From: Mesorhizobium sp. M1E.F.Ca.ET.045.02.1.1
GTDB taxonomy: Bacteria; Pseudomonadota; Alphaproteobacteria; Rhizobiales; Rhizobiaceae
Assembly: GCF_003952485.1 (NCBI RefSeq)
Contig: NZ_CP034447.1
Span: 4,540,501-4,604,500 of the forward strand
Reading direction: 5' to 3'
DNA: 64,000 nucleotides
Below, piece by piece: positions 27,089 through 32,289 of the stretch (positions within the stretch are counted from its first letter, which is position 1; each line of letters begins with the position of its first letter). The notes beneath the pieces are model-generated. The model worked only from the letters and a program-made list of their open reading frames with translations. It searched no databases and was not told the origin of the DNA. The translations under genes were made by a program, and so were the position numbers.

Positions 27089-28414
27089 ATGCGTTTGTCG
27101 CGCTACTTCCTGCCCATTCTCAAAGAAAATCCTCGCGAAGCCGAGATCGTCTCGCACCGGCTGATGCTGCGCGCCGGCATGATCCGCCAGCAGGGGCAGG
27201 GCAGCTTTTCCTGGCTGCCGCTCGGCAAACGGGTGCTGGACAAGGTCTGCCAGATCATCCGCGAAGAGCAGAACCGGGCAGGCGCGCTGGAAATCCTGAT
27301 GCCGACCATCCAGTCGGCGGATCTGTGGCGCGAGAGCGGGCGCTACAACGACTACGGCAAGGAGATGCTGCGCATCAAGGATCGCCAGGACCGCGATATG
27401 CTCTACGGTCCGACCAATGAGGAAATGGTCACGGAAATCTTCCGCGCCTACGTCAAGTCCTACAAGGACCTGCCGCTCAACCTCTACCATATCCAGTGGA
27501 AGTTCCGCGACGAAGTGCGTCCCCGCTTCGGCGTCATGCGCTCGCGCGAGTTCCTGATGAAGGACGCTTACTCGTTCGACCTGGATTTTGAAGGCGCCAA
27601 GGCCGCCTACAACCGCATGTTCGTCTCCTATCTCAGGACGTTCACGCGCATGGGGCTGCAGGCCATTCCGATGCGCGCCGATACCGGCCCCATCGGCGGC
27701 GACCTCAGCCACGAGTTCATCATCCTGGCCGAAACCGGCGAGAGCCAGGTGTTCTGCGACCGTGCCTATCTGTCGCTCGACGTGCCTGGCGCGGACACGA
27801 ACTTCTCTAACGACGCCGAGATCGGCGGCATCGTGAAGACGTGGACGACACCTTACGCGGCCACCGACGAGATGCATGACGAAGCGGCGTGGGCGAACGT
27901 TTCCGAGGGCGACAGGCTCTCCGCGCGCGGCATCGAGGTCGGCCATATCTTCCATTTCGGCGAGAAGTATTCCAAGCCGATGGGCGCCAAGGTGACAGGG
28001 CCCGACGGCAAGGACCATTTCGCTTCGGGCGGCTCCTACGGCATCGGCCCGTCGCGGCTGGTCGCGGCGATCATCGAGGCGAGCCATGACGAGAACGGCA
28101 TCATCTGGCCGGAAGCGGTGGCGCCGTTCGATATCGGCCTGATCAACATGAAGGCGGGCGACGTCGAATGCGACCGCGTCTGCGACGAGCTCTACGCGGC
28201 GCTCTCCGCGGCCGGCAAGGACGTTCTCTATGACGACACCGACCAGCGGCCCGGCGGCAAGTTCGCCACCGCCGACCTGATCGGCCTGCCATGGCAGGTG
28301 ATCGTCGGTCCGCGCGGCGTGGCCGCCGGCGAGGTCGAGATCAAGAACCGCCGCAGCGGAGAGCGTGAGACGCTGCCGATCGCCGAGGCCAAGAAGCGCC
28401 TGGGTATAGCCTGA
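27089..28414 (+). CDS. proS: Prolyl-tRNA synthetase (short bacterial type)
   Basis: A 441-residue class II aminoacyl-tRNA synthetase charging tRNA-Pro. Class II motif 2 is in [20 protein letters not shown] and the ATP-binding end in [15 protein letters not shown]. It lacks the editing insertion of the ~570-residue E. coli type, as is normal in alphaproteobacteria. The start at 27089 ([19 protein letters not shown]) matches that family's N-terminus; in-frame codons upstream would add a non-conserved 23-45 residues. Confidence 0.95.
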
Positions 28415-29697
28415 TGAGCGAGGCGGCTGCAGCCCGAAAGTCGGCAGGCGCCTTTTCAGGCTTCGAGCGCATGGTGGCGTGGCGCTACCTGCGTTCGCGC
28501 CGCAAGGAGACGGTGATCTCGGTCATCGCCTCGATCTCGTTCCTCGGCATCATGCTTGGCGTCGCGACGCTGATCGTCGTCATGGCGGTGATGAACGGTT
28601 TTCGCGCCGAGCTGCTGACCCGCATCCTCGGCGTCAACGGCCATCTGATCGTGCAGCCGCTCGATTCGCCGCTGGAGGACTACGCCCAGGTGGCGAGCCG
28701 CATCAACGGCGTTGCCGGCGTCAAATACGCCATCCCGCTGATCGACGGACAGGTGCTGGCGCAGGGCAATGTCGGCGGCGGTGTGGGCGCGCTGGTGCGC
28801 GGCATCCGCGGCGAAGATCTCGGCAAGATCGCGATCGTGTCCGGCAACATCAAGCAGGGTACGCTGGAAGGCTTCGATACCGGCGAAGGTGTGGCGATCG
28901 GCAAGCGCATGGCCGAGAATCTCGGCCTCGTGCTCGGCGACACGATCACGCTGATCTCGCCGGAAGGCGACGTCACCCCGCTCGGCACCACGCCGCGCAT
29001 GAAGGGCTACAAGATCACGGCGATCTTCGAGGTCGGCATGTCGGAATATGACAGCTCGATCGTCTACATGCCGTTTTCGGAAGCGCAGCTCTATTTCAAC
29101 ATGGACGGGCGGGCGCAGACCATCGAGATCTATGTCGACAACCCCGACAATGTCGACGTGCTGAAGCCGCTGGTCGAACAGGCGGCGCAGCGGCCGATCG
29201 ACCTCGTCGACTGGCGCCAGCGCAACGAGACCTTCTTCTCGGCGCTGCAGGTCGAGCGCAACGTCATGTTCATGATCCTGACGCTGATCGTGCTGGTGGC
29301 GGCGCTCAACATCATTTCCGGCCTCGTCATGCTGGTGAAGGACAAGGGCCATGACATCGCCATCCTGCGCACGATGGGGGCTTCGCGCGGCGCGATCCTG
29401 CGCATCTTCCTGATGACGGGGGCCGCGATCGGCGTGACCGGGACCATCGCCGGCGTGCTGCTCGGCGTGGTCATCTGCCTCAACATCGAATCGATCCGCC
29501 AGTTCTTCTCCTGGATGACCGGCAGGATCCTGTTCAATCCCGAGCTCTATTTCCTCAGCCAACTGCCTGCGAAGATGGATCCGCGCGAGACCACCTATGT
29601 CGTTATCATGGCGCTCGCCTTATCCTTCCTGGCCACGCTGTTTCCTGCCTGGCGGGCGGCTAGGCTCGATCCGGTCGAAGCCTTGAGGTACGAGTGA
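28414..29697 (+). CDS. lolC: Lipoprotein-releasing ABC transporter permease (LolC/LolE type)
   Basis: A 427-residue inner-membrane permease that with LolD extracts lipoproteins for transfer to LolA. One N-terminal helix (about residues 38-62), a large periplasmic domain and three C-terminal helices with the FtsX-type [11 protein letters not shown] coupling motif are visible. A single permease gene next to lolD suggests a homodimer (LolF-like). The start overlaps the proS stop by one base and the stop overlaps lolD. Confidence 0.93.
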
Positions 29698-30377
29698 TGG
29701 CCGAAGCCATTATCGAGCTGAAGGGCGTCGAGCGGCACTATGTCCAGGGGCCCCGCAAGCTGACTATTCTCAACGGCGCCGACTTTTCGCTGCGTCGCGG
29801 CGAGATGGTGGCGCTGGTGGCGCCATCGGGCTCCGGCAAGTCGACCTTGCTGCATACGGCGGGACTGCTCGAGCGCCCGGACGCGGGGGACGTGATCCTT
29901 GCCGGCCGTGCCTGTGGCCGGCTCTCCGACGAAGAACGCACGGCGATCCGCCGCAACGATATCGGCTTCGTCTATCAGTTCCATCATCTGCTGCCGGAGT
30001 TCTCGGCCATCGAAAACATCATGATGCCGCAGTTGATCAAGGGACTTCCCCCCAAGGAGGCGTCGGAGCGGGCGGCACAGCTTCTCGACTACATGCAGAT
30101 CGGCAAGCGCGCGCAGCACCGGCCGGCCGAGCTTTCCGGCGGCGAACAGCAGCGCGTGGCGATCGCGCGCGCCGTCGCCAACGCGCCGCTGGTGCTTCTC
30201 GCCGACGAGCCGACCGGCAATCTCGATCCGACGACCGCCTCCTATGTCTTCGACGCGCTGGAGGCGCTTGTCAGGCAATCGGGGCTGGCGGCGTTGATCG
30301 TCACCCACAATCACGAGCTGGCCTCGCGCATGGACCGGCGGGTGACGCTGGCCGAGGGCAAGGTGGTTCCGCTGTAA
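29697..30377 (+). CDS. lolD: Lipoprotein-releasing ABC transporter ATPase LolD
   Basis: A 226-residue ABC ATPase. Walker A is SGSGKSTLL, the signature is [14 protein letters not shown], Walker B is [12 protein letters not shown] and the switch His is in IVTHNHE. The ATG at 29697 overlaps the permease stop (TGATG), so the two are translated together. Confidence 0.94.
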
Positions 30378-30442
30378 CCCGTGTGTCGAGGTGTAAATCT
30401 GGGGGGGCACGGTAGGTTGAGCCGCCTTCCTTTCAGACGTTT

Positions 30443-30623
30443 GCGCTGCCCCTCATCCGCCTGCCGGCACCTTCTCCCCGTATAGTGACGGGGAGAAGGG
30501 GGCTGGCTGCGGCCTCAATGCTTATCCTGCAACGTTGACGATTGGCGAAATCAGCGAAGAGAGCGCCCCTCTCCCCGTCACTATACGGGGAGAGGATGCC
30601 GGCAGGCAGGTGAGGGGCGGCGC
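30443..30623. repeat. 181-bp nested palindromic element
   Basis: The outer arms (30443-30470 and 30594-30623) are near-perfect reverse complements around CTGCCGGCA. Inside each half is a smaller hairpin: 30471-30498 (CTTCTCCCCGT/ACGGGGAGAAG) and 30569-30594 (CTCTCCCCGT/ACGGGGAGAG). The layout is that of a rhizobial intergenic repeat, possibly doubling as the lolCD terminator. Confidence 0.85.
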
Positions 30624-30762
30624 AGGCGCCCGAAAGGAAACGACTGCCCCGCGGCCGGGGCCCATGTCTTAAAGTCCCGGTCGCGCATCTTGTTGCGTCA
30701 ACCTTTCCTTAACCGTGCCCAAACGGATCGCCGGATTGGCCCAGCACGCCGCTCCCTGATCG

Positions 30763-30797
30763 TTGACATTCGAACAAAATTAGAACAAATTACGAAC
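30763..30797 (+). promoter_or_regulatory. SOS promoter with triple LexA-type box
   Basis: Three GAAC half-sites at 30772-30775, 30783-30786 and 30794-30797 are each separated by exactly 7 bases, making two overlapping copies of the alphaproteobacterial LexA box GAAC-N7-GAAC. They start 3 bases after a perfect TTGACA (30763-30768) and cover the region of the -10, so LexA bound here would block polymerase. The 28-codon gene begins 22 bases downstream. Confidence 0.8.
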
Positions 30798-30819
30798 ATA
30801 CCAACAACAGGAGAGAGTT

Positions 30820-30906
30820 ATGGCCGATCTGGTTCAGGATGTCGTCTCGCTGGTTTGCATGAGCACCTTCCTCATTTCCATGGCGATCTGGATTGGCGCC
30901 ATGTGA
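30820..30906 (+). CDS. 28-residue membrane microprotein, probably SOS-induced
   Basis: A 28-codon frame with a strong ribosome-binding site (CAGGAGAGAG) 5 bases before the ATG. The peptide has a short polar N-terminus (MADLVQD) followed by an uninterrupted hydrophobic segment ending in AIWIGAM, so it should be a single-span inner-membrane peptide. Its promoter carries overlapping LexA boxes. Caulobacter SidA is a 29-residue LexA-controlled membrane peptide that halts division through FtsW/FtsN; size, topology and control agree, but I cannot claim sequence homology. A G/C-rich hairpin at 30957-30979 may terminate the transcript. Confidence 0.75.
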   Translation: MADLVQDVVSLVCMSTFLISMAIWIGAM

Positions 30907-30956
30907 TCAGGCGGCTCGCCGCCCTTGTTTCGGGCGGGCCAAAAGCCCGTCCTTGG

Positions 30957-31038: not shown

Positions 31039-32289
31039 GTGTCGGTCATCGCCACGGTCACCCTCGTGGCCGGAAATCTCGGACTGATCTTTCTGCTGAT
31101 GACCGCGCCGCTCGGGCTGCGCACGGTTACGGTCAGCCGCGTCATCGAGGCCGATCGGAAACGCCTCTGGCAGGCGCTGTGGCCGTTCGGCGGCGACGCC
31201 GGCTGGTCGGGTGAAATCCTATCCGCCGTACCCCTGGACGGCGAGGGCGCGGCGCTGATCAAACTGTCCTGGGAGGGGCGGGATGGTCAACCGATCGAAC
31301 GCAAGGCTCAGTTTCAGGATGTGGTGGAAGGCAGCCGCTTCTCGATGCGCGTCGTCGAGGACACGGCGCTCGATCCCTCATTCTGGGCCAACTATCGTGA
31401 AACCACCGAGCTCGTCCGCGAAGGCGACGCGACGCGGGTGACGCTTACGCAAACAGACCGCTATCGCGGCGTCGCCTTCCTGGTCTTCCGCTACTTCGCC
31501 ATGCGCCGCGAACTCGCCAAGCTGCAGGTCTGGGCGAGAACCGGAACATATCGCAAGGGCGGCTGGTTCGAGCATCCGGTGAGCCAGATCGGCTTCGCCG
31601 TGCTTTCGACCTTCATCCTGTGGCCGTTCTTCGGGCTCAACCCTGGCGGGCTGGCGCTGGCCGCGATCCTGACCTCGGTGGTGGCGCTGCACGAGCTGGG
31701 TCACATGGCGGCGTTCCGCCTGACCGGGCATCGCCGGGCGCGGATGATCTTCATCCCGCTGCTCGGCGGCATCGCCATCGGCGGCAGGCCCTATGACAGC
31801 CGCTTCGAGGTGGCCTTCGTGGCGCTGATGGGGGCGGGCTTCTCCGCCTTCCTGGTGCCCGTCCTGATCGCCGCCAGCGGCCTTGCCGGCAGCGAGGGAC
31901 ATCGCCTGGCGGCGTTGCTGCTGGCGACGCTTGCCGGCTGCGCGTCGCTGTTCAACATCGCCAATCTGGTGCCGGTGTGGAAGTTCGACGGCGGCCAGGT
32001 GCTGCGCCAGATCTGCCCAGGGCCACTCGCGCTCGCGCTGGCGTCCTTCCTGCTGCTCTCCGCCCTGTTGGCGCTCGGCTGGCGCGCCGGTTTCCCGCCC
32101 GGCTTCCTGCTCATCGCCGGAGCGGTGTTCTCGATGCTCAGCCTGCTCACCGTGGGCAGCGGCGTGAAGCCGCGTCACGAGCTGAAGCCGATCCGAGCCG
32201 TCGATCGCCTGGCCATGGCCGGCGCGCTGCTCGCGGTCTTTGCCATTCACGGCTATGGTGTGCTCTGGGCTTCGGCGCAGCTCATGTAG
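31039..32289 (+). CDS. SRPBCC - site-2-protease-like (M50) membrane fusion protein
   Basis: A 416-residue protein starting at GTG 31039. After an N-terminal membrane helix (residues 1-22), residues about 28-165 resemble an SRPBCC/START-like lipid-binding domain (VSRVIEADRKRLWQALWPFG; RVTLTQTDRYRG). The C-terminal half has several membrane helices with the zinc-protease motif HELGH (about 218-222) and the second M50 motif NLVPVWKFDGGQ (about 310-320). The zinc ligands HExxH and D are kept, so it is probably active in the membrane. Substrate unknown. It lies downstream of the microprotein gene on the same strand, with the possible terminator between. Confidence 0.8.
   Translation: MSVIATVTLVAGNLGLIFLLMTAPLGLRTVTVSRVIEADRKRLWQALWPFGGDAGWSGEILSAVPLDGEGAALIKLSWEGRDGQPIERKAQFQDVVEGSRFSMRVVEDTALDPSFWANYRETTELVREGDATRVTLTQTDRYRGVAFLVFRYFAMRRELAKLQVWARTGTYRKGGWFEHPVSQIGFAVLSTFILWPFFGLNPGGLALAAILTSVVALHELGHMAAFRLTGHRRARMIFIPLLGGIAIGGRPYDSRFEVAFVALMGAGFSAFLVPVLIAASGLAGSEGHRLAALLLATLAGCASLFNIANLVPVWKFDGGQVLRQICPGPLALALASFLLLSALLALGWRAGFPPGFLLIAGAVFSMLSLLTVGSGVKPRHELKPIRAVDRLAMAGALLAVFAIHGYGVLWASAQLM

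Follow-up and report, generated by a model that had tools for sequence, protein, structure and literature searches.

The 28-residue frame at 30820..30906 of the window (the whole 64,000-nucleotide stretch of Mesorhizobium sp. M1E.F.Ca.ET.045.02.1.1 DNA analysed here) is, on the record of its conservation across genomes, a real and strongly conserved gene, and in Mesorhizobium it is apparently under LexA (DNA-damage) control. Taken as a whole, the locus is best explained, and with good confidence, as a rhizobial sidA, that is, as the gene of a LexA-repressed, damage-induced peptide that would stop cell division. We infer LexA binding, damage induction, membrane insertion, the FtsW/FtsN target and division arrest from sequence. 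The features of the locus and its neighbourhood are as follows.

28414..29697, + strand: lolC (lolCE family), TIGR02212, above the cut-off
29694..30377, + strand: lolD, the upstream landmark; best NCBIfam match TIGR02211 LolD, with a score below the family cut-off
30763..30768, + strand: TTGACA, a -35-like hexamer by direct reading, present in most of the 30 printed genus loci
30772-30775, 30783-30786 and 30794-30797, + strand: GAAC half-sites spaced 7 bases apart, giving two overlapping GAACN7GAAC
30772..30786, + strand: predicted LexA box 1, GAACAAAATTAGAAC, GAACN7GAAC read directly
30783..30797, + strand: predicted LexA box 2, GAACAAATTACGAAC, GAACN7GAAC, its middle half-site common to box 1
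30810..30815, + strand: ribosome-binding site GGAGAG, by direct reading
30820..30906, + strand: 28-codon gene of a putative SidA-type membrane microprotein, MADLVQDVVSLVCMSTFLISMAIWIGAM, with its ATG at 30820
30910..30923, + strand: weak terminator-like hairpin directly 3' of the peptide gene; one found against a shuffle mean of 0.9, not significant
31039-32289: M50-type gene 3' of the peptide, with a weak Polyketide_cyc2-like part (below the cut-off) followed by an M50 peptidase part (PF02163)
beyond the M50-type gene, strand opposite to the peptide: lipB, LplA-B_cat domain

Direct reading bore out the initial annotation of this DNA, which had described three GAAC half-sites 7 bases apart as two overlapping boxes across a TTGACA promoter and had placed a 28-codon frame with a ribosome site 22 bases past the boxes; coordinates and spacing proved exact to the base. 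The product had been described as a short polar start followed by one hydrophobic span, and the 28 codons indeed encode a peptide that carries no charged residue after D7. A consensus scan found no sigma-70 promoter at the locus and, judged by eye, the peptide promoter lacks a good -10 hexamer.

The gene order in the window is proS-lolC-lolD, 385 bases, the peptide locus, the M50-domain gene and, on the opposite strand, lipB; dnaE had no match anywhere in the 64 kb. The M50 gene product could be a protease that acts on the peptide. Between lolD and the peptide promoter lies an inverted repeat (30427-30639; arms of 85 bases, 84% complementary and 43 bases apart), which encloses the palindrome CTCTCCCCGTCACTATACGGGGAGAG and looks like a REP/MITE-type element. 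Three weak Rfam miRNA models matched near the locus, on this inverted repeat, far below their gathering scores and were rejected.

The box motif by itself proves nothing, as it occurs at chance level both in the window and in the genome. GAACN7GAAC was found twice in the window, both times at this locus, against 1.71 expected, and 51 of 100 shuffles reached two; genome-wide, there were 170 occurrences against 196 of the reversed control pattern. We therefore rejected motif counting as stand-alone evidence. Conservation of the frame, one of the checks set by the initial annotation, gave a clear result. In a peptide search of 61 genomes, matches were obtained in 37 of 37 genomes of the same genus, its own included (E 8e-13 to 4e-10), while the 24 genomes taken from the order's other families yielded two weak matches near E 1 and no more. 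The pN/pS of the frame was 0.11 over 30 printed loci out of the 37 genus loci. Across these 30 loci, ungapped identity was 0.90 in the frame and 0.70 in the boxes; it was 0.28 in the flank before and 0.35 in the flank after, ungapped values that indels lower.

Another check concerned the GAAC triple, which is complete in part of the loci. In 80 loci from a genome collection (kept from 121 confirmed, retrieved by exact peptide words and hence biased, the named ones being nearly all Mesorhizobium), at least one perfect box lay within 80 bases in 80 of 80, and the whole triple was present in 57 and absent from the remainder. The 30 genus loci all keep the middle GAAC; in some of them the first half-site (e.g., AAAC, GCAC) or the third (as in L050) is lost. 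Positions -10 to -3, which hold the ribosome site, were conserved at 95-100% in the 80 collection loci, and 15 of 23 variable codons in the same loci varied synonymously only. No NCBIfam family matched the window peptide, and a Pfam search with 33 members of the peptide family returned no credible family, with one match at E 0.39.

To follow the peptide beyond the genus, we searched 297 genomes of the family, which we take to be Rhizobiaceae of the GTDB taxonomy, with a profile of the genus peptides. Matches at E up to 1 were obtained in 214 genomes, about 106 of which, among the matches listed, reach E 0.001. We then examined 105 family loci, comprising 80 further fetched places and 25 new loci from the profile search. 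A perfect GAACN7GAAC lay no more than 110 bases upstream of the peptide in 67 of 79 loci (those of the 80 fetched with enough upstream DNA), and the other eleven permutations of GAAC gave 0-1; a frequent upstream form is TTGAC-N5-GAACAAAAATAGAACA. Upstream, lolD was found within 1.2 kb in 71 of the 105 loci. The other neighbours in the stretches examined were lipB (56 loci), dnaE downstream (24) and an M50 gene (11), and at least one of the four accompanied the peptide in 98 loci.

Five loci (L190, L229, L236, L240 and L243) had none of these four neighbours and no box with under two mismatches, and we take them to be other genes. The peptide was also found without a recognised lolD, lipB, M50 gene or dnaE in the stretch examined at L070, which has a perfect box, and at L234, where the box has one mismatch. 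In a further locus, L206, proS-lolC-lolD lies downstream on the opposite strand and points toward the peptide, which is retained together with a one-mismatch box; this arrangement is a local rearrangement.

Outside the family, sequence search carried little further. A search of 385 genomes of the class with the A3 profile gave 84 matches at E up to 0.5 and nothing convincing outside the family; the best value apart from the window's own (2e-15) was 0.0018, many matches lay inside longer frames, and the class matches were treated as noise. We therefore used the genomic slot as a guide. For this purpose, lolC was located by its family across the order (150 genomes) and the class (240 genomes), and the stretch behind it was read in 40 order genomes (one per family, own family excluded) and in a class sample of 88 (60 genomes plus 28 printed loci). 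A slot was scored when it had a box behind lolD and, no more than 100 bases further on, a frame of 24-40 codons that opens with ATG and includes a hydrophobic stretch.

The order slots held a box in 17 of 40 cases and a box with a membrane peptide in 16; the class slots held a box in 8 of 88 and both in 7. Eleven permuted motifs gave at most one box in the order slots, at most two in the class slots and a peptide in none. The combination of box and peptide is missing from 24 of the 40 slots in the order and from 81 of the 88 in the class, which counts against the SidA reading. Where both were present, dnaE began no more than 1.5 kb from lolD in 15 of 16 order slots and 6 of 7 class slots, the dnaE query having been confirmed as DNA polymerase III alpha. 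Many of the slot peptides have a pattern in common, namely a polar start, D/E near position 7 and a helix in which F stands near 17 and W, in many cases, near 24, as in MTIIRDIAALISLSTFFLSATFW...; the peptides of L319, L325, L333 and L362 show it poorly.

The sliding clamp of PDB 6izo/6jir, which we take to be that of C. crescentus, was used to locate Caulobacteraceae: a clamp search of the class singled out one family, at 76% identity, with the next of the matches listed at 60% or less, and we take the former to be Caulobacteraceae. We searched 60 of its genomes with the dnaE N terminus and obtained 55 matches; the upstream stretch was read in 50 and the dnaE start found in 46. A peptide lies in the stretch upstream of dnaE in 42 of the 46 genomes, a count made with a short motif derived from the peptides themselves, and a motif-free look gave a candidate in 43 of 46. 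With the start chosen by script, 32 of the 42 peptides have 29 residues; starts are ambiguous in a few, and lengths range over 26-31. A perfect box lies within 110 bases of 28 of the 42 peptides, against at most 4 for permuted motifs. The remaining 14 boxes have one mismatch, which counts against the SidA reading: at this looseness GAAC gives all 42, and permuted motifs too reach as many as 16. Genome G886 has a clamp with 98% identity to the PDB clamp, and in it lolD, box, a 29-residue peptide and dnaE follow in that order.

SidA is an inner-membrane peptide of 29 residues, controlled by LexA, that inhibits division and binds FtsW (PMC4211646), and its gene carries the tag CCNA_02004 (PMC10769358). 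Caulobacter dnaE is CC1926 (PMC1839093), CCNA_02005 is a nucleoside hydrolase (PMC3667746), and recN is both CC1983 and CCNA_02062; the numbering offset of 79 places dnaE at about CCNA_02003. From these published locus numbers we infer that sidA adjoins dnaE in Caulobacter. Since dnaE thus falls beside sidA, the 29-residue frame upstream of dnaE in Caulobacteraceae was taken as SidA, which by way of the locus numbers it very probably is.

We compared the rhizobial peptides with these Caulobacteraceae slot peptides, taken as SidA by slot and used in place of the published SidA sequence. Aligned start to start without gaps (28 of the 33 peptides of set A3 and 22 of the 27 of set A4, the Caulobacteraceae set), register 0 scored 0.53 per position, all shifts from -6 to +6 scored 0.02 or less, and 13 of 5000 column permutations that kept polar and membrane parts apart reached the register-0 value. 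With hhalign, Rhizobiaceae against Caulobacteraceae scored 24.0, compared with a maximum of 20.6 in 200 permutations. A third set, A5, comprised 18 slot peptides, namely 12 of the order's 16, 4 of the class's 7 and two more from printed loci. Against this selected set, profile scores were 37.8 for Rhizobiaceae (maximum of 200 permutations 17.3) and 26.6 for Caulobacteraceae (22.1).

Seven less similar peptides (L319, L325, L333, L344, L362, L400 and L410) had been left out of A5. Because the other-slot set had been selected in this way, the profile test was repeated with all 33, 42 and 23 peptides and the result held: the scores were 24.2, 35.4 and 26.3, and the highest values among 120 permutations of each comparison were 18.5, 18.9 and 15.9. 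Two points count against the SidA reading: statistics are weak for hydrophobic peptides that are 28 residues long, and the C-terminal ends differ, W-I-G-A in rhizobia against F-V-W-M...A-x-L in Caulobacteraceae. The aligned part of these two groups comprises the N-terminal 19-20 residues. Together, the profile alignment, the slot and the box make orthology the simplest reading. The initial annotation had proposed a functional counterpart of SidA; the slot lolD-box-peptide-dnaE in relatives, the box, the length (28 against 29 residues) and the start-anchored alignment all support this, and suggest that the rhizobial peptide is probably an ortholog of SidA, beyond a mere functional counterpart. 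Slot, regulatory box and start-anchored alignment can reveal orthology in a peptide as short as 28 residues, beyond the reach of sequence search.

If the peptide acts as SidA, LexA would sit on both overlapping boxes (30772-30797) behind the -35 element and keep the gene off. Upon DNA damage, RecA would trigger self-cleavage of LexA and the peptide gene would be read. The 28-residue single-helix peptide would then enter the inner membrane and bind the septal wall-synthesis complex (FtsW/FtsN), as reported for SidA, holding FtsW/I/N inactive, and the cell would pause division until repair is finished. The genome itself has a lexA, with a box of the same form, GAACACAACTGGAAC, some 60-75 bases before the lexA match; a perfect box precedes lexA in three of four genomes looked at, G753 having no perfect one. 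SulA (PF03846) was found in none of 13 genomes (own plus 12 relatives), with a match in the E. coli control only.

The peptide resembles SidA of Caulobacter crescentus (CCNA_02004) in its predicted LexA control, its 28-29 residues with one hydrophobic helix, and a brief polar N terminus with D/E at position 7, followed by F at 17, as seen in the Caulobacteraceae slot peptides. It also resembles SidA in its slot by dnaE in relatives, SidA's own slot following from locus numbers; the lolD side of that slot is present in the window, and the dnaE side is absent from it and present in 24 of the 105 family loci. The differences from SidA lie in the sequence of the C-terminal half and in dnaE, which is not adjacent in the Mesorhizobium window. 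SulA of Escherichia coli is likewise a LexA-controlled division inhibitor, but it inhibits FtsZ and belongs to a different family. DidA of C. crescentus is similarly a small protein of one helix that damage induces and that inhibits division through FtsW/I/N, but it has 71 residues, is SOS-independent and is induced by DriD (PMC4211646). YneA of Bacillus subtilis is an SOS-induced single-helix protein that binds FtsW, but it has an extracellular LysM domain and comes from a different phylum; according to a 2026 study, YneA binds TM7 of FtsW and low-confidence models place SidA on FtsW likewise (PMC13396833).

Three other explanations were weighed against the rhizobial sidA. The peptide might be a TisB/DinQ-like SOS toxin, lowering the proton motive force and driving dormancy with no binding to the divisome. 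TisB of E. coli is likewise a 29-residue, LexA-controlled, inner-membrane peptide (PMC8145889), yet this toxin depolarises the membrane under the control of an antisense RNA (PMC8145889) and is restrained by a structured leader as well, whereas here the ATG comes 22 bases after box 2. No Rfam model matched over the peptide gene at E up to 0.1, though an RNA of a type not yet described is conceivable, and slot and sequence link the peptide to the dnaE-upstream peptides of Caulobacteraceae, which makes the toxin unlikely.

We also consider it improbable, though conceivable, that the peptide shares SidA ancestry only and is a LexA-controlled membrane regulator of another target, such as the M50-type protease or the Lol exporter. 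The M50 peptidase gene (PF02163) lies downstream in the window, as it does in 11 of the 105 family loci, and lolD precedes the peptide in 71 of the 105. However, the M50 neighbour is not general, with lipB near 56 and dnaE near 24 of the 105, and on the simplest reading the Caulobacteraceae slot peptide next to dnaE is SidA, for which FtsW is the reported target. That the box serves dnaE or another downstream gene, the short frame being a leader or an accident, is very improbable: dnaE does follow the peptide in 24 of 105 family loci, in 21 of 23 order and class peptide slots and in Caulobacteraceae, but in Mesorhizobium it is not in the window and yet the frame persists in 37 of 37 genus genomes, with boxes in the loci read and a pN/pS of 0.11 that indicates selection at the protein level.

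Should the locus be a rhizobial sidA, as we favour, one short gene would offer a ready test for rhizobia and many relatives, and the peptide may, as a speculation, be relevant to cells that enlarge in nodules but do not divide. SidA-type peptides look like an old checkpoint common to many alphaproteobacteria and easily missed through their shortness. Among the matches listed in open-licence literature (SidA, LexA and Caulobacter; rhizobia, Sinorhizobium, Rhizobium and Agrobacterium with LexA), no title or abstract concerned a rhizobial SidA, and no named damage-induced division inhibitor of rhizobia was among the matches listed in that literature.

In some family genomes there is also, away from the slot, a relative that lacks the box, MRDLLHDIASFVAVSTFIATFAVWAGYLAEKV and its kin. 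Searches of phage records and plasmids with the peptides gave no match; in IMG/VR, 53 stretches matched words and 12 contigs (L502-L513) were confirmed to encode the box-less relative. A perfect LexA box was found in none of the 12 in the 150 bases before the peptide, and PHROGs held no family for three of the viral-contig peptides. It is possible that the phage-borne peptide is a phage-captured division inhibitor. A broader proposal, whose chances we judge to be evenly balanced, is that SidA, far from being peculiar to Caulobacter, is an SOS checkpoint peptide of ancestral alphaproteobacterial origin, settled between the genes of the lipoprotein exporter and dnaE and overlooked for its shortness, and that temperate phages of rhizobial hosts captured it as a box-less, Kil-like division-stop peptide of their early region. 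Pfam scans of chosen neighbouring genes identified RecT in both L507 and L502, together with an S24-type repressor in L507 and with a PDDEXK-like DUF3799 protein in L502, surroundings that look like the early region of a temperate phage. The SidA-like peptides without a LexA box, those of the viral contigs included, have 32-33 residues; in the family genomes they lie at L229:3001-3096, at L240:3001-3096 and in L236, in prophage-like regions.
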